Shown here piece by piece: positions 10,234 to 62,920 of a stretch of DNA of 64,000 bases. The position numbers were made by a program, and so were the translations under genes. This DNA is from Protula sp. h YS-2021. Its lineage: Eukaryota > Annelida > Polychaeta > Sabellida > Serpulidae. How positions within the stretch are numbered: position 1 is the stretch's first letter; each line of letters opens with the position of its first letter. Under the pieces are notes generated by a model. The model saw nothing but the letters and a program-made list of their open reading frames with translations, made no database searches and was not told the origin of the DNA. The stretch is taken from contig OX457034.1 in the NCBI GenBank assembly GCA_949752745.1, forward strand, positions 1,999,833 to 2,063,832, in the 5' to 3' direction.

Positions 10234-12717
10234 CAGTAGACCCCACTTATCTCGAACTCGGATATCTCGAACTCCCGCTTATCTCGAACAAATCTCTCGG
10301 TCCCGACGTTTTTTCCTTATATAAGTCTTATAATCCTCGCTTATCTCGAACTATTTTTATCTCGAACACATTTTGACCCCCCAAAATTTCAAATTTTGTC
10401 TCAGACCCACAGTTTGCATTCATGATTATTGTTCAAAAACATCATAGGACATCAATGGAAAGTAAGCCCTTTCATGCTTGTTATGATCATGAATTGGCGT
10501 TCACAATGTAGCACCATTGACTCCGGTTGAGATGAACACAGTTGAGAACTTGTCAAACCTATTGCGTCTTTAATACAATAGATCAGTAGGTTGTTAGACG
10601 ATACAAGTCATGACTTAAGAACATCAATGGAACTTATGCCCTTTCAACTTAATCCGGCTAATTGGTCAAATCAACGATGATGGCATTATGGACTCTGGTC
10701 TGCTGGGTAGCGTTGATTAGTTGTCAAACTGAATTGCAATTGGAACATTACCCCTTCCCTTTCATGTGTATCAGATGAAAGATGAGGTCTTGTGCAAAAA
10801 TCGCTTTGTAGGGCTTAACTTTTTGAATTTATATCATCCGAATTGAGTATAAATAACCACTGGCTTCAGCGTTTCATTATCACTTTAAACAATCGTTTAT
10901 GGTTACTAATTGATTTGAGATAAAGTTCTGAAAATGGATGAACGGAAAGGTGTGAAACGTAAATTAGACGTTAAATCAATGGATATTAAATACAGAGCAG
11001 TGATGGAAGTAGAACGAGGACTTAAATCAAAAGCTAAAATTGCTGAAGAGTTTGGTGTAAAAAGAAACACTCTTTCAACCTGGATAAAAAATAAACAGAC
11101 TATTATTGATGGTTATCGTAGTGGTTCGTTCAATGTGGATAGAAAGAAAATGCGTCATGCTCAGTTTGAGGATATAGAAGATGATCTTTACAAGTGGTTT
11201 GTTAATGCACGTTCCCACAATGTGCCCGTTAGTGGACCTCTGTTACAAGCACAAGCTGAAATTATAGCCAAGAAACTAGGATACAATGATTTCAAGTGCA
11301 GTGGCGGATGGTTGGATCGCTTTCAAAAGCGTTATCAAATTGTTTTCAAAAAGATATCCGGAGAAGCGAAATCTGTCAACTTGGATAGTGTACACGACTG
11401 GTACAACAGTGTGTTTCTCGACATCCTCGACCAGTACGATGCAAAGGATATTTATAATGCAGACGAAACCGCCATTTTCTACAAGCTGTTACCTGATCGT
11501 ACCCTCACATTCAAAGGCGATGATGGCCATGGCACAAAGACAAGTAAAGAACGTCTATCAGTTTTAGTGGCCGCCAACATGAATGGAACGGATAAACGAC
11601 GTCTCCTTGTGATTGGGAAATCCGCCAAACCACGATGTTTCAAGAACGTTGCGACATTGCCAACTCAATATGAAAGCAACAAAAAAGCGTGGATGACAAG
11701 TGCCATTTTCACGACATGGGTGCACGAGTTTGACGAGGATATGGCCAGACAGCGGCGGCAGGTCGCGCTGCTCATCGACAATTGCCCAGCCCATCCCGAC
11801 GTTCGCGGCCTACGAGCTACCACGCTATTTTTCCTACCACCCAACACAACCAGCGTCACTCAACCGATGGACCAAGGTGTGATTTTGAGCTTCAAAAGGA
11901 ACTACAGAAAGCAGCTTGTGGATAGACTATCCCAGTGTATGTTGTAACGACGAGTTTGCCGCCATCCCGACCAACACTTCCATCCGTACCTCAGGACTAC
12001 ACAACTCCAATGGATAGCGCCATGTTCGAGGAATATGTCTCTGTAGACATGGATGCTGTTTGCACCGAAGACATCAACGACGAGAATGAGCACCCAGCAG
12101 ATGAACAGCCTGAGAGCTCTACTAACGAAACAGAACAGAACCGTGAGTTACGACCTACCTCCGCGATTATCGACAATCTAGAGAGGTTGCGATTCGATGC
12201 CAGTACTTTCAGAGACGCTGAAGGTGCTTTCGACAGAATAAACTGGCTTATGAACTGGTTTGAAGCCCAACGTCATCAGAGAGCCACGCAGACCACCATC
12301 AAAGACTTCTTTGTGCCGAAGGAATAGAACTTGAATCGATGACTTTAGTGTTATGATACATGTAACAATTTTGTTTGGTTTATATACAGGACACTGTGTA
12401 CTAGATCTGTGTTAAATACCCGCATGATTTGTTTTGTGATTGTGTTCAAGAACCATAGACTTTAGCAAATAAAATTCTTAAATAAGAATTCGTTTCATTT
12501 TTTGTTCATATAAATTAAAAAGTTTGAATTTCTAGTCCTTTTAAACAAATAAGAAACCATTTTATAACTATAAACCTATATATAACACATACAATATCAT
12601 ACAAGTACATTATATGTCTATATTTATGCTCGAGCTCGAGACCCTCGGATATCTCGAACTTCGGTTATCTCGAACAAATCACCACGGTCCCGACCTGTTC
12701 GAGATAAGCGGGGTCTA

Positions 12718-16179: not shown

Positions 16180-17775
16180 TGTGCGTCCCTATGGCATTAC
16201 ACTCCGGCACACGCCCCCGTGGCATTACATTCCAGCACACACCCCATGGCATTACACTCCAACGCACACCCCGATGGCATTACACTCCAGCACATACCCC
16301 CATGGCATTACACTCCAGCACATACCCCCATGGCATTACACTCCAACGCACACCCCCATGCCATTACACTCCAGCACAGACCCCCATGGCGTTACACTCC
16401 AGCACACACTCCATGACATTACACTCCAGCACATACCCCCATGGCCTTACACTCCAGCACACACCCCATGGCATTACACTCCAGCACACACCCCCATGGC
16501 ATTACACTCCAGCACACACCCCCATGGCCTTACACTCCAGCACATACCCCCATGGTGTTACACTGCAGCACATACCCCATGGTGTTACAGCACACACCCT
16601 TATGGCGTTACACCCCAGCACACACCCCCATAGCGTTACATTCCAACACATAGTCCCATGGCGATACCCTGCAGCACATACCCCCATGGTGTTACACTGC
16701 AGCACATACCCCATGGTGTTACAGCACACACGCTTATGGCGTTACACCCCAGCACACACCCCCATAGCGTTACATTCCAGCACATACTCCCATGGCGATA
16801 ACCTGCAGCACATACCCCCATGGCGTTACACTCCAGCACACACCCCCAGGGCCTTACACTCCAGCACACACCCCCATGGCGTTACATTCCAGCACACACC
16901 CCCATGGCGTTACACTCCAGCACATACCCCCATGGTGTTACACTCCAGCACATACTCCCATTTCGTTACACTCGAGCACATACCCCTATGGCGATACACT
17001 CGAGCAGACACCCATGGCGTTACACTCCAGCACACACCCCCATGGCGTTACACTCCGGCACACACCCCCATGGCGTTACACTCCAGCACATATTCCCATG
17101 GCGATACCCTGCTGCACATACCCCCATGGTGTTACACTGCAGCACACACCCCAAAAGCGTTACATTCCAACACATAGTCCCATGGCGATACCCTGCAGCA
17201 CATACCCCCATGGTGTTACACTGCAGCACATACCCCATGGTGTTACAGCACACACCCTTATGGCGTTACACTCCAGCACATACCCCCATGGGGTTACACT
17301 CCAGCACATACTCCCATTTCGTTACACTCGAGCACATACCCCTATGGCGATACACTCGAGCAGACACCCATGGCGTTACACTCCAGCACACACCCCCATG
17401 GCGTTACACTCCGGCACACACCCCCATGGCGTTACATTCCAACACATAGTCCCATGGCGATACCCTGCAGCACATACCCCCATGGTGTTACACTGCAGCA
17501 CATACCCCATGGTGTTACAGCACACACCCCCATGGCGTTACACTCCAGGACACACCCCCATGGCATTACACCCCAGCACACATCCCCATGGCGTTACACT
17601 CAGCACAGACCCCCATGGCGTTACGCTCCAGCGCACACCCCTATGGCGTTACACTCCAGCACACACCCCCATACATTCCAGCACATACTCCCATGGCGTT
17701 ACACTGCAGCACACACCCCATAGCGTTACATTCCAGCACACACCTCCATGGCGTTACACTGCAGCACACACCCCC
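16180..17775. repeat. 28-bp minisatellite, ~57 copies, from the exon 2 donor
   Basis: The unit is of the form CCCATGGCGTTACACTCCAG plus CACACACC. It begins about 15 bp after the exon 2 splice donor. Because 28 is not a multiple of 3 and no frame has a stop, all three plus frames stay open for hundreds of codons. These are repeat artefacts, not genes. Higher-order variants (TGCAGCACATACCCC, CTCGAGCA) recur in blocks, showing block duplications. Confidence 0.95.
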
Positions 17776-28601: not shown

Positions 28602-29049
28602 GTGAGGAAAAAGACTCCATTGGGAGCAACAGATAGGGCGAGGGGCGGGGGGGGGGGGGGTGGAGGGCTGGGGGGTTAACCCAAGATGTTGTGCTTAGTT
28701 GCTGCCACTGGTAACCCATCGTTATGTGCTGGCTAATGTTTGTGAAATGTTAAAGTATAAGGCGAATCTAAAATGGGAAGGGGAAAAAATATACAAAATA
28801 AAAGTAAGCGTAACACATGAACTTTCTTTTTGGATTTGTTGATATATTGTGTTAATAACTGCACTGTTTTATTATTGATTTTAAGAGAAACAATGGGTCG
28901 AAGGATAGCATTGTAGAAGTGGGAACGAGACCAAAGTCGCTGGGCAACGCAAATGAACCAATCAGCGATTGCCTAACAACGTCGGCGTGTTTACTGACTG
29001 CCCCGAGCCCACAGGTGGGGCGAAAAGCCCTGGACATGTCATGTGTTAT
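28602..29049. other. Intron 4, first part
   Basis: A G-tract at 28647-28661 and unassigned sequence. No gene is seen. Confidence 0.4.
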
Positions 29050-30010
29050 GCAGGGAGAGAGAGTGGTGACTGCCTCGGAGGTAAGCCGACACGTGTTGTG
29101 CGGGGAGTGGGAGTGGTGGTGGTAGCAGAGGTAAGCCGACACGTGTTGTGCGGGGGGTGGGAGTGGTGATGGTACGGGGGTAAGCCGACACATGTCATGC
29201 GGAGAGAGAGTGGTGAAGGCCGCGGAAGTAAACAGACACGTGTCTTGCGGGGAGAGAGTGGTGAAGGCCGCGGAAGTAAACAGACACGTGTCTTGCGGGG
29301 AGAGAGTGGTGAAGGCCGTGGAAGTAAACAGACACGTGTCTTGCGGGGAGAGAGTGGTGAAGGCCGCGGAAGTAAACAGACACGTGTCTTGCGGGGAGAG
29401 AGTGGTGAAGGCCGTGGAAGTAAACAGACACGTGTCTTGCGGGGAGAGAGTGGTGAAGGCCGTGGAAACAAAAAAAACACGTGTCTTGCGGGGAGAGAGT
29501 GGTGAAGGCCGTGGAAGTAAACAGACACGTGTCTTGCGGGGAGAGAGTTGTGAAGGCCGCGGAAGTAAACAGACACGTGTCTTGCGGGGAGAGAGTGGTG
29601 AAGGCCGTGGAAGTAAACAGACACGTGTCTTGCGGGGAGAGAGTGGTGAAGGCCGTGGAAGTAAACAGACACGTGTCTTGCGGGGAGAGAGTGGTGAAGG
29701 CCGTGGAAACAAAAAAAACACGTGTCTTGCGGGGAGAGAGTGGTGAAGGCCGTGGAAGTAAACAGACACGTGTCTTGCGGGGAGAGAGTGGTGAAGGCCG
29801 CGGAAACAAAAAAAACACGTGTCTTGCGGGGAGAGAGTGGTGAAGGCCGCGGAAACAAAAAAAACACGTGTCTTGCGGGGAGAGAGTGGTGAAGGCCGTG
29901 GAAGTAAACAGACACGTGTCTTGCGGGGAGAGAGTGGTGAAGGCCGCGGAAACAAAAAAAACACGTGTCTTGCGGGGAGAGAGTGGTGAAGGCCGTGGAA
30001 GTACGCTAAC
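29050..30010. repeat. 48-bp minisatellite, ~17-19 copies
   Basis: The unit contains GACACGTGTCTTGCGGGGAG, AGAGTGGTGAAGGCCG and CGGAAGTAAACA, with an AACAAAAAAAACACGTG variant. At exactly 48 bp (16 codons) it keeps frames open on both strands, giving apparent 16-aa-repeat ORFs up to 426 codons on the minus strand. These have no gene context and I do not call them genes. Each unit carries the palindrome ACACGTGT, containing an E-box. Confidence 0.95.
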
Positions 30011-30059
30011 ACGCTGTCATGCTGGGAGGGAGAGTGGCGCGCCTGGTCCCCCACCTGGC

Positions 30060-30544: not shown

Positions 30545-31215
30545 GTGTTGTAAGTGTTGTAAGTGTGCGCGATGACGTTACCGTGACGCTGACAGTGTGA
30601 GCGATGACGTTACCGTGACGCTGAAGTGAGTGAAGACGTCTCCGTGACGCTGAAGTGAGCGAAGACGTCTCCGTGACGCTGACGGTGTGAGCGATGACGT
30701 CTCCGTGACGGTGACAGTGTGAGCGAAGACGTCTCCGTGACGCTGACAGTGTGAGCGATGACGTTACCGTGACGCTGACAGTGTGAGCGAAGACGTCTCC
30801 GTGACGCTGACAGTGTGAGCGATGACGTCTCCGTGACACTGCCGGTGTGAGCGAAGACGTCTCCGTGAGGCTGACAGTGTGAGCGATGACGTCTCCGTGA
30901 CGCTGACAGTGTGAGCGAAGACGTCTCCGTAACGCTGACAGTGTGAGCGAAGACGTCTCCGTGACGCTGACAGTGTGAGCGATGACGTCTCCGTGACGCT
31001 GACAGTGTGAGCGAAGACGTCTCCGTAACGCTGACAGTGTGAGGGATGACGTTCCCGTGACGTTTAAGTGTGAGCGAAGACGTCTCCGTGACGCTGACAG
31101 TGTGAGGGATGACGTTACCGTGACGCTGACAGTGTGAGCGAAGACGTCTCCTTGACGCTGCCAGTGTGAGCGATGACGTTTCCTTGATGTTTAAGTGTGA
31201 GCGATGACATCTCGG
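30545..31215. repeat. 32-bp minisatellite, ~21 copies, ending at exon 5 acceptor
   Basis: The unit is GTGAGCGAAGACGTCTCCGT plus GACGCTGACA(GT), with GATGACGTTACCGTGACG variants. The last unit lies about 10 bp before the exon 5 acceptor (GATTTCAG). Each unit starts GTGAGC, a donor-like hexamer, and carries GACGTC or TGACGTT cores. Confidence 0.95.
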
Positions 31216-31227
31216 TGCTGATTTCAG

Positions 31228-31422
31228 GAGGAGTGTACACGTGCCGTGAATGACCTTCACATTGACGCAGAAAGCCACGAGGCAGTGGAGGGGCCGCCGG
31301 AAGCGAGTGCAGGAGGCGCGGATAGCGAGGTCGTGGAGGGCGCGGGCGCGCGGGAGAGCGTCAAGAGCCACTCGTTTCCGCGCTCAAACAGCACCGCGTC
31401 CCCGTCTCACAGCGTCGACAAG
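31228..31422 (+). CDS. WDR44: WDR44-like gene, exon 5 (acidic, phospho-site-like region)
   Basis: Acceptor GCTGATTTCAG|GAG and donor GACAAG|GTCAGT bound 195 bp, 65 codons in phase 0 at both ends. The peptide is acidic and Gly/Ala-rich and ends with KSHSFPRSNSTASPSHSVDK. The RxRSNS-type element lines up with the PRSNS site just upstream of the LDTGE block in vertebrate WDR44. Phase and order relative to exon 6 support it; sequence conservation is limited. Confidence 0.7.
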
Positions 31423-44628: not shown

Positions 44629-44951
44629 TTTAACAGCAACTGAGCTAACAAGGGTAATGCAAATTTAGCAATAGCTCCAATGAATCCTCCTTTCTGATTA
44701 ACCAACTTCTTTTTTCTTCGAAGTGATATCTTCTTATCTGCTAGTGTGCGTAGGGTATGACGTTCACGCTTGAATACCTTATACCTTTTTGAGCTTAAGG
44801 GTAAATGTCCTCGCAATATATTCAAACAAATTTCAAACAAGCTAGTTAATTCCTCCTTAGTAGCTTGTTGTAGCAAGGTTTTACGTCGTTTAGGCCCGCT
44901 GCGTGCGAGCAAGTGAAGAAAAGGTTGATTCGCTTGAATACGTTTAGACAT
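44625..44951 (-). CDS. Small basic virion-core-like protein with hydrophobic tail
   Basis: 108 aa, ATG at 44951, overlapping the ATPase gene by 8 bp. Sequence: FLHLLARSGPKRRKTLLQQA, then LFEICLNILRGHLPLSS, a KRERHTLRTLADKKISLRRK basic block, and a C-terminal GGFIGAIAKFALPLLAQLLL membrane-active-looking segment preceded by NQKGG. The LLARSxPKxRKxLL...NxLxGxxPLS...HxxxLRxLAxKKxSLxxKKxLxxQKGG pattern is common in Polinton elements. A DNA-binding or membrane-lytic virion role is inferred from composition. Confidence 0.7.
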   Translation of the reverse strand: MSKRIQANQPFLHLLARSGPKRRKTLLQQATKEELTSLFEICLNILRGHLPLSSKRYKVFKRERHTLRTLADKKISLRRKKKLVNQKGGFIGAIAKFALPLLAQLLLK

Positions 44952-45603
44952 CTTGGCTGCGAATGGTTAGGTGACTTGGTTCTTGTTCATACGCCACCTT
45001 ATCAACATATACGTAATGTGTATCTTTTGGTAAAATGCCTGTACGAATACGTAGTTGATCATTTGTCTTCGGCTTCAAATCAATGAATAAATAGCCGTGA
45101 GGTTTGCTGGTAGCATCTTGATAGGCTTCTATGAGAAATTGAGATTTTCCAGGATACATTTGTCGCGCTAATGTACTTATTTGTTGGCTGTCTCTAGGAT
45201 TTTTAAACAGAATGATGTAATGTGTATTCAAACTAATATTTCGCATTTCTCTACCATGATGAAACAAATTATGTACAATAAAAATAATGCTAAGATTTTG
45301 ATGACTGCTACCAACACTAAAGAGACGTGTCATACGCTCATCACTATGACATTTAGTCATTAAGTCATCAATGATGAGTAAGTTTGGCTTTTTCGGGTTA
45401 AAACGCTCTTCAATGTCATCTGGAATGCCTTGGTAAAATTCCACACCTTTCATTCCCTTGTACAAAGGCTGATCTGCTGCATAGAGCCATAAAATGGTTT
45501 TTGGAGAGGGTTTAATTAACTTTTGTTCTAGAATTTCTCTAACTAGAGAAGTTTTACCACTGCCTGTAGGTCCAGAGACCAAACATGTGAATGGATGCTT
45601 CAT
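44944..45603 (-). CDS. ATP: Genome-packaging ATPase, FtsK/HerA type
   Basis: 219 aa from the ATG at 45603 (an in-frame TTG upstream is unlikely as a start). Walker A is GPTGSGKTS at residues 11-19 with K17. Walker B is NLLIIDDLM with D79/D80. A sensor-like FIVHNLFHHG segment follows, then a typical FKNPRDSQQISTLARQMYPG block. The start overlaps the stop of the chromodomain frame (ATGA). It pumps the genome into capsids in the family. All motifs are intact. Confidence 0.93.
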   Translation of the reverse strand: MKHPFTCLVSGPTGSGKTSLVREILEQKLIKPSPKTILWLYAADQPLYKGMKGVEFYQGIPDDIEERFNPKKPNLLIIDDLMTKCHSDERMTRLFSVGSSHQNLSIIFIVHNLFHHGREMRNISLNTHYIILFKNPRDSQQISTLARQMYPGKSQFLIEAYQDATSKPHGYLFIDLKPKTNDQLRIRTGILPKDTHYVYVDKVAYEQEPSHLTIRSQDV

Positions 45604-45920
45604 TTTCGAATATCTGTTTCTTTCACCCAACTGTTAAACTTCTTTGGCCAACCTAACCACTTCACAAATAATTCTTTAACACCTCGTCTTTTTCGTGTTT
45701 TCAAAACCTTTTCAATTCTGTAGACTGATTCAATATCTTTTGTCACTTTCTGTAGTTCTTCTTCATAGAAATGTCCATCAATATCTTCATCCAAAAAGTC
45801 TTTCACACGATACAAGTGTACTCCTTGCTTCTTACAACGATGTGTGATAATGAAGACTTCTTGCGTCCACTTTATATGATAATCTCGTTGAAATACATAT
45901 TTTATGTGAGAAATGCGAAC
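45600..45920 (-). CDS. Chromodomain tail of the integrase, beyond an in-frame stop
   Basis: Reading on from the integrase stop in the same frame, about 106 codons stay open. They contain RISHIKYVFQRDYHIKW-type Polinton integrase linker, then a chromodomain-like segment: VYRIEKVLKTRKRRGVKELF and VKWLGWPKKFNSWV, with the aromatic W/W positions that read histone marks. There is no ATG at its start; only TTG codons are available. Either it is lost through nonsense mutation of the integrase, or it is reached by readthrough. It ends in ATGA overlapping the ATPase start. Confidence 0.7.
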   Translation of the reverse strand, partial: VRISHIKYVFQRDYHIKWTQEVFIITHRCKKQGVHLYRVKDFLDEDIDGHFYEEELQKVTKDIESVYRIEKVLKTRKRRGVKELFVKWLGWPKKFNSWVKETDIRK

Positions 45921-46700
45921 CTAATCACCAATTTTAAATTTGTAGGGTTTTTTCTTCTTCGGTTTTAATTTCAATTTGTCTACATACATATATTTCCACA
46001 CTTTCGATTCAATGTCTTTACGAATGTCTGCAGGAGCATACTTATTAGGGAGGGAGCCATGTGGTCTATGGTTGTAATTATACACTAAGTCTGGAAGAAT
46101 GTCCATATATCGATACGTTTGATTATGTAGGAAATATCGATACATCATTCCCTTTAGAGTACGAATGACTCTCTCAGCATAGTTGGCTTTGGTTTCATTC
46201 TTTGTCGTATAGGCATGTATTCCCTCCTTCTTCATAAAAGCTTTTACCCATCTGTTTTTAAATTCAGTTCCCTTATCCGACCTTAGAGTTCGTGGTCTTC
46301 GTTGTGTTTCATGAAAAATCTTTTGAAATGCTTCTATGACGCTGGTATGTGATTTGTTAGGTATTGGCTGCACCCATAAATATTTGGAAAACACATCAAT
46401 GACAACCAACAAAAAACGGGTGTCATCATTATAGGAAGCTATGTTTCCCATGTCAGCTAAATCAATATCCCACATGTCATCAATTCCACGTGTAATGACA
46501 CGTTGCCTTTTAAACCTGTATTTTACAGGTTGTAGTAAACTGAAGGCATCTTGATCCTGTAGCCATTTCTTCACTTGTGAATGAGTGACTGGTTGATCAT
46601 GTTTTCTTAATATGTGATAAAGTTTGTATGGACCAGCAAATGCCCCGGGTTGACCAGGTTTAAAATAAATATTGGTTAGGTAGTCTTTCCACGTCGACAT
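45921..46700 (-). CDS. INT: Polinton integrase (retroviral type, DDE), prematurely stopped
   Basis: 259 aa, ATG at 46700. The N-terminal part (about 1-70) is helical, with PGAFAGPYKLYHILRKH and a SQVKKWLQDQDAFSLLQP segment replacing a zinc domain. The catalytic core has D80 (WDIDLADM), D142 (LRSDKGTEF) and E176 (NYAERVIRTLK), a D-x33-E spacing. The frame ends FKIGD then TAG at 45921-45923, exactly where family members continue into the chromodomain. The rest of the frame is undamaged, so the stop looks recent. Integrases of this type cut 6-bp staggered target sites, agreeing with the GTCGTG duplication. Confidence 0.92.
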   Translation of the reverse strand: MSTWKDYLTNIYFKPGQPGAFAGPYKLYHILRKHDQPVTHSQVKKWLQDQDAFSLLQPVKYRFKRQRVITRGIDDMWDIDLADMGNIASYNDDTRFLLVVIDVFSKYLWVQPIPNKSHTSVIEAFQKIFHETQRRPRTLRSDKGTEFKNRWVKAFMKKEGIHAYTTKNETKANYAERVIRTLKGMMYRYFLHNQTYRYMDILPDLVYNYNHRPHGSLPNKYAPADIRKDIESKVWKYMYVDKLKLKPKKKKPYKFKIGD

Positions 46701-46780
46701 GTTAACACTAAATGATTAACACTTGTTAACATATCTTACATTTTATTTTATCAACACATCTTGCATTTTATCAACATATC
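46701..46780. promoter_or_regulatory. Spacer upstream of integrase
   Basis: 80 bp of AT-rich sequence with CTTACATTTTATTTTATCAA-like short repeats. It contains one of the few gaps in the minus-strand gene row, so a promoter or polyadenylation site may lie here; TTTATT on this strand reads AATAAA in the direction of the upstream genes. Confidence 0.35.
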
Positions 46781-50006: not shown

Positions 50007-50172
50007 GGAGTTCTGGAGACTGTGTCCGTGCTCAATCTGGATACGGGGGAGCGGATCCCGCTGAGCGAGGCGGAAGGCAAGGTGCCGTGCGGTGTCAACC
50101 CTCTCTCCCTGCACATCATGCGCCGAACCAAGGAGTACCTCAGCGACCCCAAGCTCCACCACTCCGCTCACG
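50007..50172 (+). CDS. WDR44: WDR44-like gene, exon 6 (LDTGE / LHIMRRTKEY block)
   Basis: Phase 0 at the acceptor and one leftover base (G) at the donor TCACG|GTGAGA, 166 bp. Translation includes VLNLDTGERIPLSEAEGKVP and CGVNPLSLHIMRRTKEYLSD. Vertebrate WDR44 has NLDTGE-IPLS-AEEKLP-GINPL-LHIMRRTKEY at the same place, a strong, specific match. The exon's last 31 bp and its donor are the seed of the 61-bp array that follows. The acceptor is weak, so usage may depend on other signals. Confidence 0.9.
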
Positions 50173-53028
50173 GTGAGACCTTCTGCCTCTACTATAGGGG
50201 ATAGCGACCCCAAGCTCCACCACTCCGCCCACGGTGAGACCTTCTGCCTCTACTATAGGGGATAGCGACCCTAAGCTCCACCACTCCGCCCACGGTGAGA
50301 CCTTCTGCCTCTACTATAGGGGATAGCGACCCTAAGCTCCACCACTCCGCCCACGGTGAGACCTTCTGCCTCTACTATAGGGGATAGCGACCCTAAGCTC
50401 CACCACTCCGCCCACGGTGAGACCTTCTGCCTCTACTATAGGGTATAGCGACCCTAAGCTCCACCACTCTGCTCACGGTGAGACCTTCTGCCTCTACTAT
50501 AGGGTATAGCGACCCCAAGCTCCACCACTCTGCTCACGGTGAGACCTTCTGCCTCTACTATAGGGTATAGCGACCCTAAGCTCCACCACTCCGCGCACGG
50601 TGAGACCTTCTGCCTCTACTATAGGGGATAGCGACCCTAAGCTCCACCACTCCGCCCACGGTGAGACCTTCTGCCTCTACTATAGGGGATAGCCACCCCA
50701 AGCTCCACCACTCCGCCCACGGTGAGACCTTCTGCCTCTACTATAGGGGATAGCGACCCCAAGCTCCACCACTCCGCCCACGGTGAGACCTTCTGCCTCT
50801 ACTATAGGGGATAGCGACCCCAAGCTCCACCACTCTGCTCACGGTGAGACCCTCTGCCTCTACTATAGGGGATAGCGACCCCAAGCTCCACCAATCTGCT
50901 CACGGTGAGACCTTCTGCCTCTACTATAGGGGATAGCGACCCCAAGCTCCACCACTCCGCCCACGGTGAGACCTTCTGCCTCTACTATAGGGGATAGCGA
51001 CCCCAAGCTCCACCACTCTGCTCACGGTGAGACCCTCTGCCTCTACTATAGGGGATAGCGACCCCAAGCTCCACCACTCTGCCCACGGTGAGACCTTCTG
51101 CCTCTTCTATAGGGGATAGCGACCCCAAGCTCCACCACCCCGCCCACGGTGAGACCTTCGGCCTTTACTATGGGGGATAGCCACCCCAAGCTCCACCACC
51201 CCGCCCACGGTGAGACCTTCGGCCTTTACTATAGGGGATAGCCACCCCAAGCTCCACCACTCTGCCCACGGTGAGACCTTCTGCCTCTACTATAGGGGAT
51301 AGCGACCCCAAGCTCCACCACTCCGCTCACGGTGAGACCTTCTGCCTCTTCTGTAGGGGATAGCGACCCCAAGCTCCACCACCCCGCCCACGGTGAGACC
51401 TTCTGCCGTTACTGTAGGGGATAGCGCCCCAAGCTCCACCACCCCGCCCACGGCGAGCATTCTGCCTCTACTGTAGGGGATAGCGACCCCAAGCTTCACC
51501 ACCCCGCCCAAGGCGAGCATTCTGCCTTTACTGTAGGGGATAGCGACCCCAAGCTTCACCACCCCGCCCAAGGCGAGCATTCTGGCGTTACTATAGGGGA
51601 TAGCGCCCCAAGCTCCACCACTCCGCCCACGGCGAGAATTCTGCCTTTACTGTAGGGGATAGCGACCCCAAGCTTCACCACCCCGCCCACGGCGAGCATT
51701 CTGGCGTTACTATAGGGGATAGCGACCCCAAGTTCCACCATCCCGCCCATGGCGAGCATTCTGCCGTTACTATAGGGGATAGCGCCCCAAGCTCCACCAC
51801 CCCGCCCACGGCGAGCATTCTGCCTCTACTGTAGGGGATAGCGACCCCAAGCTTCACCACCCCGCCCACGGCGAGCATTCTGGCGTTACTATAAGGCATA
51901 GCGACCCCAAGCTCCACCACCCCGCCCACGGTGAGACTTTCTGCCTTTACTATAGGGTATAGCGACCCCAAGCTCCACCACTCCGCCCACGGTGAGACCT
52001 TCTGCCTCTACTATAGGGGATAGCGACCCCAAGCTCCACCACTCCGCTCACGGTGAGACCTTCTGCCTCTACTATAGGGGATAGCGACCCCAAGCTCCAC
52101 CACTCCGCCCACGGTGAGACCTTCTGCCTCTACTATAGGGGATAGCGACCCCAAGCTCCACCACCCCGCCCACGGTGAGCTTTTCTGCCTTTACTGTAGG
52201 GGATAGCGACCCCAAGCTCCACCACCCCGGCCACGGTGAGACCTTCGGCCTTTACTATGGGGGATAGCCACCCCAAGCTCCACCACTCTGTCCACGGTGA
52301 GACCTTCGGCCGTTACTATAGGGGATAGCGACCCCAAGCTCCACCACTCCGCTCACGGTGAGACCTTCTGCCTCTACTATAGGGGATAGCCACCCCAAGC
52401 TCGACCACTCTGCCCACGGTGAGACCTTCTGCCTCTACTATAGGGGATAGCGACCCCAAGCTCCACCACCCCGCCCACGGTGAGCTTTTCTGCCTTTACT
52501 GTAGGGGATAGCGACCCCAAGCTCCACCACCCCGGCCACGGTGAGACCTTCGGCCTTTACTATGGGGGATAGCGACCCCAAGCTCCACCACCCCGGCCAC
52601 GGTGAGACCTTCGGCCTTTACTATGGGGGATAGCGACCCCAAGCTCCACCACCCCGGCCACGGTGAGACCTTCGGCCTTTACTATGGGGGATAGCCACCC
52701 CAAGCTCCACCACTCCGCCCACGGTGAGACCTTCTGCCTCTACTATAGGGGATAGCGACCCCAAGCTCCACCACTCCGCCCACGGTGAGACCTTCTGCCT
52801 CTACTATAGGGGATAGCGACCCCAAGCTCCACCACTCCGCCCACGGTGAGACCTTCTGCCTCTACTATAGGGGATAGCGAACCCAAGCTCCACCACCCCG
52901 CTCACGGTGAGACCTTCTGCCTCTACTATAGGGGATAGCCACCCCAAGCTCCACCACTCCGCTCACGGTGAGACTTTATGCCTCTACTATAGGGTATAGC
53001 GACCCCACGCTCCACCACCCCGCCATAT
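50142..53028. repeat. 61-bp minisatellite made of exon 6 end plus splice donor, ~47 copies
   Basis: The unit begins AGCGACCCCAAGCTCCACCA and continues CTCCGCCCACGGTGAGACCT then TCTGCCTCTACTATAGGGGAT. The first unit's first 31 bp are the coding end of exon 6 (SDPKLHHSAH) and its GTGAGA is the functional donor. Nearly every copy keeps CACGGTGAGA, so the intron begins with dozens of donor-like sites. Some copies also have CTACTATAG, which is acceptor-like. Confidence 0.95.
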
Positions 53029-54694: not shown

Positions 54695-54814
54695 ACATAA
54701 AAGCCGACGACTCACAGACCATCACTACGGTCAAGGCCGTCGGCAAGAGGAAGAAGAAGCTCAAGAAGTTCTTCGGCAAAGCGAAACAAAAGATAAAGAC
54801 AGTTAAAGATGAAG
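54695..54814 (+). CDS. WDR44: WDR44-like gene, exon 7 (basic KKFFGK block)
   Basis: Acceptor CCCACTGCGCAG|AC and donor GATGAAG|GTGAGG bound 120 bp. Two bases complete exon 6's G and one base is left over. Translation DIKADDSQTITTVKAVGKRK, KKLKKFFGKAKQKIKTVKDE parallels the vertebrate QLKKFLGKSVKRAK...VKSVRDE block ahead of the WD repeats. The donor lies within the first unit of the array that follows. Confidence 0.88.
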
Positions 54815-56640
54815 GTGAGGAGAGGGCGGTACTCGGGCGGGGAGGGGGAGCGTGCGGTGATGGGTGGGCAGCGGGAGAATGGTGCTGGTGCGGGGAGGGG
54901 GGCGGGGAGTGCGGTACTCAGGCGGGGAGGGGGAGCGTGCGGTGATGGGTGGGCAGCGGGAGAATGGTGCCGGTGCGGGGAGAGGGGGAGTGCGGTACTC
55001 GGGCGGGGAGGGGGAGCGTGCGGTGATGGGTGGGCAGCGGGAGAATGGTGCCGGTGCGGGGAGAGGGGGATTGCGGTACTCATGCGGGGAGGGGGAGCGT
55101 GCGGTGATGGGTGGGCAGCGGGAGAATGGTGCCGGTGCGGGGAGAGGGGGTGTGCGGTACTCGGGCGGGGAGGGGGAGCGTGCGGTGATGGGTGGGCAGC
55201 GGGAGAATGGTGCCGGTGCGGGGAGAGGGGGAGTGCGGTACTCGGGCGGGGAGGGGGAACGTGAGGTGATGGGTGGGCAGCGGGAGAATGGTGCCGGTGC
55301 GGGGAGCGGGGGGGGGGGGGAGAGGGTGCGGTATCGGGCGGAGAGGGGGAGCGTGCGGTGATGGGTGTGCAGCGGGAGAATGGTGCCGGTGCGGGGAGGG
55401 GGGGAGTGCGGTGCTCGGGCGTTGAGGGGGAGCGTGCGGTGATGGGTGTGCAGCGGGAGAATGGTGCCGGTGCGGGGAGGGGGGCGAGTGCGGTACTGGG
55501 GCGGGGAGGGGGAGCGTGCGGTGATGGGTGGGCAGCGGGAGAATGGTGCCGGTGCGGGGAGGGGGGGGGGGTGGGTGCGGTACTCGGGCGGGGAGGGGGA
55601 GCGTGCGGTGATGGGTGGGCAGCGGGAGAATGGTGCCGGTGCGGGGAGAGGGGGAGTGCGGTACTCGGGCGGGGAGGGGGAGCGTGCGGTGATGGGTGGG
55701 CAGCGGGAGAATGGTGCCGGTGCGGGGAGCGGGGGGGGGAGAGGGTGCGGTACTCGGGCGGAGAGGGGGAGCGTGCGGTGATGGGTGGGCAGCGGGAGAA
55801 TGGTGCCGGTGCGAGGAGGGGGGGAGTGCGGTACTCGGGCGTTGAGGGGGAGCGTGCGGTGATGGGTGTGCAGCGGGAGAATGGTGCCGGTGCGGGGAGG
55901 GGGGCGAGTGCGGTACTGGGGCGGGGAGGGGGAGCGTGCGGTGATGGGTGGGCAGCGGGAGAATGGTGCCGGTGCGGGGAGGGGGGGGGGTGGGTGCGGT
56001 ACTGGGGCGGGGAGGGGGAGCGTGCGGTGATGGGTGGGCAGCGGGAGAATGGTGCCGGTGCGGGGAGGGGGGGAGTGCGGTACTCGGGCGGGGAGGGGGA
56101 GCGTGCGGTGATGGGTGTGCAGCGGGAGAATGGTGCCGGTGCGGGGAGGGGGGCGAGTGCGGTACTGGGGCGGGGAGGGGGAGCGTGCGGTGATGGGTGT
56201 GCAGCGGGAGAATGGTGCCGGTGTGGGGAGGGGGGCGAGTGCGGTACTGGGGCGGGGAGGGGGAGCGTGCGGTGATGGGTGGGCAGCGGGAGAATGGTGC
56301 TGGTGCGGGGAGGGGGGGGGGGAAAGGGCGGTACTTGGGCGGGGATGGGAGGGTTGCGGTACTCGAGGTGGATTAATGGGATGGTGTGCTCGTGTTGGAA
56401 TGAAGGGGGGGGGGGGGTGCGAACGTCGTCAGTGGCGGGTGGAATGCGGTACTTGGGCGGGGATTGGGTGGGGGGGGGGGGCGGGGATGCGATGCTCGTG
56501 CTGGGATGATGGTATACGGTACTCATGCAGTAATGGGGGAATGCGGCACTGGGGCGGGGGTTCGGGGGATGCGATGCTCGTTCTGGGTGGGAGACATGAG
56601 GTACGTGATTTGGGGGCGGGGGGGGGGATGAAATAATATC
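54815..56640. repeat. 81-bp G-rich minisatellite, ~19 copies, from exon 7 donor
   Basis: The unit is GCGGTACTCGGGCGGGGAGG, GGGAGCGTGCGGTGATGGGT, GGGCAGCGGGAGAATGGTGC, CGGTGCGGGGAGAGGGGGAGT. At 81 bp (27 codons) it keeps frames open on both strands, producing a 604-codon Pro/His/Ser minus-strand ORF and Gly-rich plus ORFs; not genes. It starts at the exon 7 donor itself (GTGAGGAGAGGGCGG). Diverged units run to about 56630. Dense G-runs make G-quadruplexes likely. Confidence 0.93.
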
Positions 56641-56675: not shown

Positions 56676-56827
56676 TGTTTCACAACGCGGAAAGTAGTCC
56701 GTCGGACAGCGAGGAGGAATCTGATGAGTCACGGCGGATGATCAAAATCAAGGCGTCAAACAGCCACAAGGGGCCGTACGACTTCGATTTGCTGGTTCCG
56801 GTGCAAGACATCAGCAATGCGCATAGC
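56676..56827 (+). CDS. WDR44: WDR44-like gene, exon 8 (KGPYDFD block)
   Basis: Acceptor TATGCCTCTTAG|TG and donor CATAGC|GTGAGT bound 152 bp. Two bases complete exon 7's leftover G into Val, giving KDEVFHNAESSPSDSEEE across the junction, like RDEVFH-x-D-PSSSDDE in vertebrate WDR44. It continues KIKASNSHKGPYDFDLLVPV, QDISNAHS, matching VKFKAAHGFKGPYDFD-KVVQDLSGEH. The exon ends in phase 0, which fits GAVWTM at the start of the WD-blade exon found in the 60254-62113 array. Confidence 0.92.
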
Positions 56828-59910: not shown

Positions 59911-60039
59911 GTTCATTCAGAACGCACCCCTTCCTCCTCGGTGAGGAGGGGGTGTCTGTTTTTATGTGCAGCGCACGGTGTTGTGTTTGTGTGTAGGGCG
60001 TTCGTGGGACGGGGTTGGCATGACGTCATGATGTCACGT

Positions 60040-62113
60040 GTTTGTGTGCAGGGCGCCGCGAAAAGCATGAAATTTTTGCTGATCGATGGGGCGGGGGAGG
60101 CGGGAGGGGTGTGCCTTGCCATGAAGTGATGTGTGTGAGCAATGCACCGTCTGGAGCATGTAGTTCTTGCTGTGTATCTCTGTGTGTGTGCGGGGGGGGG
60201 GGGGGGGGGTTGCGTGTTTTGACGTCACTTTGCGCAGGACGGTGGAGGGGGTGTCGTGACGTCAGACGTGCGTGTGTGTGCAGGGTGCCGTGTGGACGAT
60301 GCGATTCTCTCTGTGCGGGCGGCTGCTGGCTTCGGGAGGGGGTGGTATCATGACGTCACACGTGCGTGTGTGTGCTAGGCGCCGTGTGGACGATGAGGTT
60401 CTCGCTGTGCGGGCGGCTGCTGGCTAGCGGGAGGGGGTGGTGTCGTGACGTCACACGTGCGTGTGTGTGCAGGGCGCCGTGTGGAAGATGCGATTCTCGC
60501 TGTGGGGGCGGCTGCTGGCTAGCGGGAGGGGGTGGTGTCGTGACGTCACACGTGCGTGTGTGTGCAGGGCGCCGTGTGGACGATGCGATTCTCGCTGTGC
60601 GGGCTTCTGCTGGCTAGCGGGAGGGGGTGGTGTCGTGACGTCACACGTGCGTGTGTGTGCAGGGCGCCGTGTGGACGATGCGATTCTCGCTGTGGTCGGC
60701 TGCTGGCTAGCGGAGGGGGGGGGGGGGTGGTGTCGTGACGTCACACGTGCGTGTGTGTGCAGGGCGCCGTGTGGAAGATGCGATTCTCGCTGTGCGGGCG
60801 GCTGCTGGCTAGCGGGAGGGGGTGGTGTCGTAACGTCACACGTGCGTGTGTGTGCAGGGCGCCGTGTGGACGATGCAATTCTCGCTGTGCGGGCTTCTGC
60901 TGGCTAGCGGGAGGGGGTGGTGTCGTGACGTCATACGTGCGTGTGTGTGCAGGGCGCCGTGTGGAAGATGCGATTCTCGCTGTGCGGGCGGCTGCTGGCT
61001 AGCGGGAGAGGGTGGTGTCGTGACGTCACGCGTGCGTGTGTGCAGGGCGCCGTGTGGACGATGAGGTTCTCGCTGTGCGGGCGGCTGCTGGCTAGCGGGA
61101 GGGGGGTGGTGTCGTGACGTCACACGTGCGTGTGTTCATGGCGCCGTGTGGACGATGAGGTTCTCGCTGTGCGAGCGGCTGCTGGCTAGCGGGGGGGGGG
61201 GGGGGGGTGGGGTGGTATCATGACGTCACACGTGCGTGTGTGTGCAGGGCGCCGTGTGGACGATGAAGTTCTCGCTGTGCGAGCTGCTGCTGGGTAGCGG
61301 GAGGGGTTGGTGTCGTGACGTCACACGTGCGTGTGTGTGCAGGGCGCCGTGTGGACGATGAAGTTCTCGCTGTGCGGGCGGCTGCTGGCTAGCGGGGGGG
61401 AGGGGGTGGTGTCGTGACGTCACTCGTGCGTGTGTGTGCAGGGGCGCCGTGTGGACGATGCGATTCTCGCTGTGCGGGCTTCTGCTGAGTAGCGGGAGGG
61501 GGTGGTGTCGTGACGTCACACGTGCGTGTGGCTGCAGGGCGCCGTGTGGACGATGCGATTCTCGCTGCGCGGGCGGCTGCTGGCTATCGGGAGGGGGTGG
61601 TGTCGTGACGTCAGACGTGCGTGTGTGTGCAGGGCGCCGTGTGGACGACGCGATTCTCGCTGTGCGGGCGGCTGCTGGCTAGCGGGAGGGGGTGGTGTCG
61701 TGACGTCACACGTGCGTTTGTGAAGGGTGCCGTGTGGACGATGAGGTTCTCGCTGTGCGGGCGGCTGCTGGCTAGCGGGAGGGGGTGGTCTCGTGACGTC
61801 CGACGTGCGTGTGTGTGCAGGCCGCCGTGTGGACGATGCGATTCTCGCTGTGCGGGCGGCTGCTGGCTAGCGGGAATGGGTGGTGTCGTGACGTCAGATG
61901 TGCGTGTGTGTGCAGGGCGCCGTGTGGACGATGAAGTTCTCGCTGTGCGGGCGGCTGCTGGCTAGCGGGAGGGGGTGGTGTCGTGACGTCACACGTGCGT
62001 GTGTGTGCAGGGCGCCGTGTGGACGATGAGGTTCTCGCTGTGCGGGCGGCTCCTGGCTAGCGGGAGGGGGTGGTGTCGTGACGTCACACGTACGTGTGTG
62101 TGCAGGGCGCCGT
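60040..62113. repeat. 95-bp array built from the WDR44 WD-blade exon, ~20 copies
   Basis: The regular array begins at about 60254, after two diverged copies (60040-60240). Each unit: TGTGTGTGTGCAG (an acceptor), GGCGCCGTGTGGACGATGCG, ATTCTCGCTGTGCGGGCGGC, TGCTGGCTAGCGGGAGGGGG, then TGGTGTCGTGACGTCACACG. The exon-like part reads GAVWTMRFSLCGRLLASG, the start of the first WD repeat of WDR44 (GAVWTMKFSHCGRLLASAG), in the phase expected after exon 8. No copy continues into the rest of the blade (QDNIVRIW). The array runs into the assembly gap. Confidence 0.93.
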
Positions 62114-62313
62114 NNNNNNNNNNNNNNNNNNNNNNNNNNNNNNNNNNNNNNNNNNNNNNNNNNNNNNNNNNNNNNNNNNNNNNNNNNNNNNNNNNNNNNN
62201 NNNNNNNNNNNNNNNNNNNNNNNNNNNNNNNNNNNNNNNNNNNNNNNNNNNNNNNNNNNNNNNNNNNNNNNNNNNNNNNNNNNNNNNNNNNNNNNNNNNN
62301 NNNNNNNNNNNNN
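62114..62313. other. Assembly gap (200 N)
   Basis: Run of 200 N directly after an array unit cut at GGCGCCGT. The round number suggests a gap of unknown size; the rest of WDR44 may be in it or the two sides may be wrongly joined. Confidence 0.95.
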
Positions 62314-62560
62314 TACCCGTATCATTCGTTCGATACTAGAATTTATGTGTTGTGATATGGCGTACCGTAATATCGCATGGCGTAAATAACTCCCATTACG
62401 TCAGCGAATAAAACGTTTTTATTTGCTTCTACTTAATAATCTTCAAATGATTCGCTTTATTGGCGAAATTTATAAAATCGTTAAAGTAATTTACGTGACA
62501 TCGGGGACTCTTTAACAATACCGGTAGACCTCAGGGCGTTTGCTAATGTTTATGAATACT
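62314..62560. other. Unassigned sequence after gap
   Basis: AT-rich, with no gene seen. Confidence 0.4.
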
Positions 62561-62920
62561 GTTGATACAGGCCGCCTTCCCTCAGCCCATGCCTGCCATT
62601 GGGAGGATAGCGAACTTCCCCCCCCCCTCCCACCCCCACTCCCCCCAACCCCACAGGGTGTAGAGAACTGTTTGGTGGTTTGCTAATGTTTATGAATACT
62701 GTTGACACAGGCCGCCTTCCCTCAGCCCATGCCTGCCATTGGGAGGATAGCGAACTTCCCATTCCCCTCACCCCTCCACCCCCCCCCCCCCCCCCCCCCC
62801 CCGCCAATGTGTAGAGAACGGCTTGGTGGTTTGCTAATGTTTATGAATACTGTTGATACAGGCCGCCTTCCCTCAGCCCATGCCTGCCATTGGGAGGATA
62901 GCGAACTTCAGCTCGCTGAG
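62540..62920. repeat. ~135-bp triplication of an exon acceptor and exon start
   Basis: Three copies of GTTTGCTAATGTTTATGAAT, ACTGTTGATACAG and GCCGCCTTCCCTCAGCCCAT, GCCTGCCATTGGGAGGATAG, CGAACTTC, starting near 62538, 62678 and 62829. The first two continue into C-tracts; only the third continues as coding sequence to a donor. Confidence 0.9.

Follow-up and report, generated by a model that had tools for sequence, protein, structure and literature searches.

WDR44 exons on both sides of an assembly gap

The window, by which we mean the whole 64,000-nt stretch analysed (contig C11, positions 1999833-2063832, + strand; assembly of 863 Mb in 218 contigs), contains five placed exons of a WDR44 gene followed by a 95-bp tandem array. 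The array runs into a 200-N assembly gap (62114..62313), the sole gap in 181 kb of the contig; window position 62114 corresponds to C11:2061946. The joined exons matched WDR44. Among the 120 homologues listed, that of Capitella teleta was 78% identical, and those of Lineus longissimus, Owenia fusiformis and Lingula anatina were also present; the top two listed matches were 80% identical and were either unnamed or called just WD40 repeat protein. The exons are colinear with WDR44, with the motif GAVWTMxFSxCGRLLA at the first WD blade.

All exons before the gap are on the + strand. A putative exon at 28886..29080 has its donor (gtaagc) at 29081. A further exon is at 50007..50172 (VLETVSVLNLDTGERIPLSEAEGKVPCGVNPLSLHIMRRTKEYLSDPKLHHSAH, donor gtgaga), and two more are at 54695..54814 (DIKADDSQT...KTVKDE, donor gtgagg) and 56676..56827 (VFHNAESS...VQDISNAHS, donor gtgagt), the latter immediately preceding the array. 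Since this exon ends at 56827 in phase 0, its phase suits an exon starting GAVWTM, as the first-pass annotation of this DNA had expected. The remaining WD part was found on the other side of the gap at C11:2137927-2152948, on the same contig and strand. Altogether five exons were placed before the array and six after it. All of them are open, adjoining exons join in phase when read by hand, and the last exon ends in TAA where the homologues end. Identity to five compared homologues was 84-92% in three of the six 3′ exons and about 46-86% in the others. Exons before 27909 were left out, together with a 28-bp array at 16187; their phases did not join. This array (58 copies, 16187-17775) lies immediately after a coiled-coil-like ORF, does not join the next exon in phase and is possibly another donor-side array.

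The missing part of WDR44 starts midway through the first blade and reaches ...WSK. When the whole assembly (863 Mb) was searched with this stretch, 16 matches were obtained, of which 15 were array copies and one was weak. The same stretch from an 80%-identical homologue retrieved the exon that comes next, together with 15 weak matches, the best of which had E 0.01. No intact blade exon, which the first-pass annotation had considered might lie elsewhere, was thus found in the assembled genome by these searches, which short exons can escape.

The interval separating the gap from the 3′ exons of WDR44 (C11:2062146-2137900, loci L009 to L023) contains exons of an Ig-domain gene on the same strand. 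With these exons in the 76 kb after the gap, the sequence could be joined imperfectly there: either the Ig-domain gene lies inside a WDR44 intron, or it indicates that the join is not simple. It has a donor array of its own (119 bp x 10.9, C11:2064827-2066138). In addition, three copies of an acceptor with about 48 nt of exon start were read directly at 62538..62909 on the + strand (exon parts at 62571, 62711 and 62862), near an Ig-domain exon that belongs to a neighbouring gene. They are not in the TRF list, and the last copy alone runs on.

Several mobile-element sequences are present in the region. A Polinton-like element at 44947-46715 (- strand) encodes an integrase core (PF00665) and a packaging-type ATPase (Adeno_IVa2 / Pox_A32 profiles). 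A transposase ORF at 10919-11944, with CENP-B, Tc5 HTH and DDE_1 domains, is of the Pogo/Tigger type. Downstream of the gap are a YqaJ-type recombinase ORF of 445 aa (L010:1637-2971, +), a DDE_Tnp_4 transposase (L010:3300-4553, -) and a reverse transcriptase (L020:1052-1759, -).

Structure of the 95-bp array

A single array was reported by TRF at 60250..62113 on the + strand, with a period of 95, 19.4 copies, 89% matches and a score of 2920, which confirmed the array of about 20 copies seen in the first-pass annotation. Alignment of the units gave 19 full units, two degenerate copies on the 5′ side and one copy cut by the gap. In each unit an intron end leads through a TG-rich acceptor into 51-54 nt of the first WD-blade exon, after which comes a short G-rich tail, and TGACGTCA is present in the intron end of most units. 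The unit consensus reads ...GTGTGTGTGCAG and passes directly into the coding part, GGC GCC GTG TGG ACG ATG CGA TTC TCG CTG TGC GGG CGG CTG CTG GCT AGC (GAVWTMRFSLCGRLLAS). The unit peptide, GAVWTMxFSLCGRLLAS, corresponds to the initial 17-18 codons of WDR44's first WD blade, and none of the visible copies continues into the rest of the blade. That assignment had been proposed earlier, and it was upheld by the motif GA[VI]W[TSV]MxF, which occurs in 117 of the 120 listed homologues and continues to ...GQD in those 117. The same count rules out a chance similarity limited to a few codons. A PDB search with the short unit peptide returned generic WD40 chains, and WDR44 was absent. From TRF, the unit alignment and the peptides we annotated 60250..62113 as an acceptor mirage array of WDR44: a mirage is defined as a tandem repeat spanning an exon-intron boundary, and this unit contains an acceptor and 51-54 nt of exon in phase.

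The acceptor noted in the units by the first reading is largely preserved. Of the 19 full units, 16 have AG immediately 5′ of the coding part and 18 have it within one nt; it is shifted by one nt in units 60345 and 61409 and lost in unit 61109. The coding part is open in all full units except unit 60630, which has a frameshift. The 19 full units all differ from one another, and 17 of them have at least one private alignment column. These inner units are near the consensus, the two copies at the 5′ edge are diverged (starts 60015 and 60214, together 60015..60249, + strand, from the unit alignment), and the 3′ edge is hidden in the gap. The copy at 60015 reads GGCGCCGCG...ATGAAATTT. An early copy singled out in the first-pass annotation is indeed distinct, as GCTTCGGGA was found in copy 60251-60344 alone among the 19 full units. 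This copy, near 60290, reads A-S-G-G, as do several homologues, and the lysine codon of the homologues is retained in other copies (60015, 61215, 61310 and 61883).

Diversity among the array copies was 0.040, 0.099 and 0.085 at the first, second and third codon positions, compared with 0.069 for the intron part of the unit and 0.157 for the sequence that follows the exon part. By this measure of diversity per position there was no codon-position signature of coding constraint within the copies, and for that reason the copies are probably passengers. The CGA, AGG and AAG variants of one codon gave a first impression of synonymous evolution under constraint. They may be read more simply as one slip templated by the adjacent CGAT.

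Donor sites were scored on a crude scale that gives 4-8 for the ten placed WDR44 donors. The two GT sites directly 3′ of the coding part score 3 each. Three more are found in the following intron part, 79-85 nt from where the coding part starts; their scores of 6, 4 and 5 are within the range of the real donors. Cryptic exons from the 95-bp units are possible because these further GT sites score like placed donors. DNA from the array start had no other locus in a genome-wide search that skips simple repeats, except for four short matches of 35-46 nt.

The palindrome TGACGTCA, the CRE octamer, was strongly over-represented in the region: it occurred 24 times in 143 kb of array-masked sequence (C11:1979833-2160832), where 1.8 would be expected. 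In kinesin loci L031-L060 there were 27 against 1.27 expected, 11 of the 27 in the array-bearing locus L041. The flanks of the palindrome seem unrelated, except that they are mostly purine before it and pyrimidine after it. None was found in 20 kb of mitochondrial DNA.

Arrays at other exon boundaries

WDR44 contains at least four arrays with exon sequence, namely those at 29057, 50142 and 60250 and that of the last exon. The TRF array at 29057..30032 (+ strand) is a donor mirage with a 48-bp unit in 20.1 copies; it begins 24 nt inside the exon and spans the donor. Another donor mirage, at 50142..53024 (+ strand, TRF), has 47.4 copies of a 61-bp unit, in which the donor is flanked by the terminal 31 nt of the exon and by 30 nt of intron. 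In both donor arrays the first copy is the one joined to the exon body, a mirror image of the acceptor arrays. Within the 61-bp array (about 47 copies in total), 37 of 38 parsed units have a 36-nt in-frame segment bounded by an AG-like site and a GT site. The segment is exactly GDSDPKLHHSAH in 16 units, AG and GT are both kept in 32 of the 38, and such segments could be cassette exons. The last exon (C11:2151983-2152948) has an acceptor and exon start at 2151983, 2152140, 2152410 and 2152757. The first three of these copies pass into intron repeat, and the 3′-most alone reaches the stop codon.

Five further WDR44 arrays are no more than 25 nt from a splice site (30562, 54822, C11:2139090, C11:2139983 and C11:2149053). 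The first of them, a 32-bp array of 20.8 copies at 30562..31217 (+ strand, TRF), stops 11 nt short of a putative acceptor at 31228; it abuts the acceptor and contains no exon sequence. An 81-bp G-rich array at 54822..56349 (+ strand, TRF) follows the exon at 54695-54814, beginning 7 nt after its donor.

The frequency of such arrays was estimated in two samples. The WDR44 sample covered 49.4 kb of stretches with 22 placed splice sites and 23 merged arrays of score at least 100; the array at 60250, with its exon in the gap, has its own splice site outside these 22. The kinesin sample consisted of the 30 best-scoring loci of a motor search (part of 139 rows), with 97.9 kb, 63 exons and 126 sites. 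Its arrays were filtered at a score of at least 50, and its exon ends were set by a simple AG/GT score and not by RNA. An array spanned the boundary in five of the 63 kinesin exons, that is at five sites (three acceptors and two donors). In L041 the unit is 74 bp and there are 11 copies, of which the last alone continues into the exon. There are signs that boundary arrays are common in this genome.

It is possible, though we rather doubt it, that mirages arise preferentially at splice sites through a splicing- or transcription-coupled process and are not ordinary minisatellites that span a boundary by chance. Eight of the 23 WDR44 arrays span a placed splice site or are no more than 25 nt away from one; with the array at 60250 there are nine. 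Under a seed-unit null, the four exon-containing arrays of WDR44 compare with 0.63 expected (P 0.004), in a gene that was picked because of one of them. The corresponding kinesin figures are five and 2.25 (P 0.08), a weak excess; for both samples together, which include the WDR44 gene so picked, they are nine and 2.88 (P 0.003). Against a preference, a null in which the arrays were rotated inside their loci gave no excess in the kinesin sample, either for spanned sites (5 observed, 8.5 expected) or for array edges near sites (4 and 4.8). The stronger proposal, that boundary minisatellites are pervasive here (about one exon in 12), are seeded preferentially at splice sites and in some cases give in-frame cassette exons (the 36-nt segments of the 61-bp array) serving as a live source of new exons and introns, appears unlikely.

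Two other repeats were noticed in the surrounding sequence. The 126-bp array at C11:2115174-2115834 (5.2 copies, unit reading QEDKIGWVRGGGDIKYYRNNI) may be an acceptor mirage of another gene, perhaps carboxypeptidase-like. An open frame of 891 codons (L022:6449-9121) contains a 285-bp unit x 3.8 and has no Pfam match.

Origin of the 95-bp array and state of the gene

The 95-bp array is most probably a mirage-type minisatellite whose genuine exon is its 3′-most copy, located in the gap and spliced into the mRNA, and arrays of this kind would need no function. The seed would have been a local tandem duplication of the boundary segment upstream of the exon. Unequal exchange or replication slippage would then have given a larger, partly homogenised array, with worn copies left at the distal edge. 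The 3′-most copy, in the gap at 62114, would be the exon used in the mature mRNA. The upstream copies would be poor exons that mostly remain intronic, because the rest of the exon is absent from them and the GT sites directly after the coding part are weak. Such arrays would persist without a function because one intact boundary copy stays beside the exon body.

This layout is supported by two complete examples, the last exon of WDR44 with its four acceptor copies and the kinesin locus L041 with its 11. By the same examples, the genuine exon should be the copy in the gap and not the one near 60290, which the first-pass annotation had suggested might be nearest the ancestral exon. That annotation also described the array as an exon turned into a minisatellite. 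Its visible copies are partial exons, as it said; what appears to have been copied upstream is the boundary, that is the acceptor and exon start, and not the whole exon. The absence of the blade end from the assembly is expected if the true exon is the last array copy inside the 200-N gap, and this is the simplest reading. We infer that the gap holds this copy with its intact exon and any further copies, as the blade continuation was not found elsewhere.

Mirage minisatellites are known from amphioxus, where the available parts of the papers describe them in Adh3, in the globins BflGb6 and BflGb9 and in troponin C, with similar repeats in PGBD5 (PMC3087553, PMC3902484). There, RT-PCR suggests regular splicing, and the cluster edges are excluded from homogenisation (PMC3087553). 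The arrays described here resemble them in being tandem repeats that span a boundary on the acceptor or donor side, in the many units that keep AG or GT and in their diverged edges (PMC3087553, PMC3902484, as far as their available text goes). They differ from what those parts report in that the animal is an annelid, the arrays have up to 47 copies, one gene has at least four arrays containing exon sequence, and the authentic copy of the 60250 array is probably hidden in a gap. In the available text on human internal tandem repeats in segmental duplications (PMC2812944), minisatellites likewise reach exon-intron boundaries and may create introns; the genes altered there, in exons and introns alike, are young primate paralogues, whereas here partial-exon copies sit in the introns of a conserved gene. 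Earthworm metallothionein genes are also annelid genes with minisatellite blocks in an intron, and unlike the 60250 array these have no exon-boundary copies in the available text (PMC12783039). In the open-licence literature, searched in part with amphioxus as a term, the papers found to use 'mirage' as a name for such repeats are on lancelets, and the word 'tandem' is absent from the available main text of the Galeolaria caespitosa genome paper (PMC12400804).

The array therefore belongs to a known but little-studied kind of repeat, which genes seem to tolerate. What is new is the presence of boundary arrays in a serpulid annelid, both in WDR44 and in the sampled kinesin exons, and we found no earlier report for the group. 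The mitochondrial contig (21,318 bp) agrees with this placement: among the 120 matches listed for its cox1, the best named ones are the serpulids Ficopomatus enigmaticus (62%) and Hydroides elegans (58%), after an unnamed top match of 63%, and not amphioxus or a bivalve, to which repeats and mitochondrial layout had at first seemed to point. Its length and its genes lying on one strand are also in line with serpulid mitogenomes (PMC13202650). Mirages have been proposed as a route to new introns, and the papers found under that name describe them in a handful of lancelet genes. An annelid with several of them in one gene would be a rich place to test how splicing chooses one boundary among tens of copies, and it would also allow testing whether the arrays become introns or exons.

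WDR44 is probably not broken. The first-pass annotation had suggested that the gene might be, in which case the exon body would have been lost during array expansion, leaving a pseudogene or a truncated protein. The failure to find the blade continuation in 863 Mb of assembled sequence is in line with such a loss, which we nevertheless consider very unlikely. On both sides of the array the other placed exons are in phase and intact. Three of the 3′ exons retain the identity of 84-92% given above and the others about 46-86%, conservation that would not last in a dead gene. The missing part coincides with the assembly gap, and the last exon is intact despite an array of the same kind.

It is highly improbable that the arrays are in use, with repeat-derived alternative acceptors or cassette exons giving WDR44 a variable peptide. 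The in-frame 36-nt segment of the 61-bp units, with both sites kept in most of them, and those further GT sites of the 95-bp unit that score like weak real donors point in this direction. However, a length divisible by 3 has a chance of 1 in 3 and a short open segment is not unlikely, the introns between adjacent 61-bp copies would be just 25 nt, and the 95-bp period is not divisible by 3.

We regard it as extremely improbable that the array is an assembly artefact, due to false duplication or a wrongly joined contig end: it does stop exactly at the gap, and a draft amphioxus genome is reported to contain an aberrantly assembled mirage (PMC3087553), but each of the 19 full units is distinct, 17 of them being marked by a private alignment column, and similar arrays lie within gap-free stretches (C11:2151638-2152751, window 50142-53024 and L041). 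The copy number near the gap may be wrong. The assembly break at the array seems to have lost a WDR44 exon, a warning that in genomes of this type an assembly may be interrupted within a gene at such arrays, with loss of exons.
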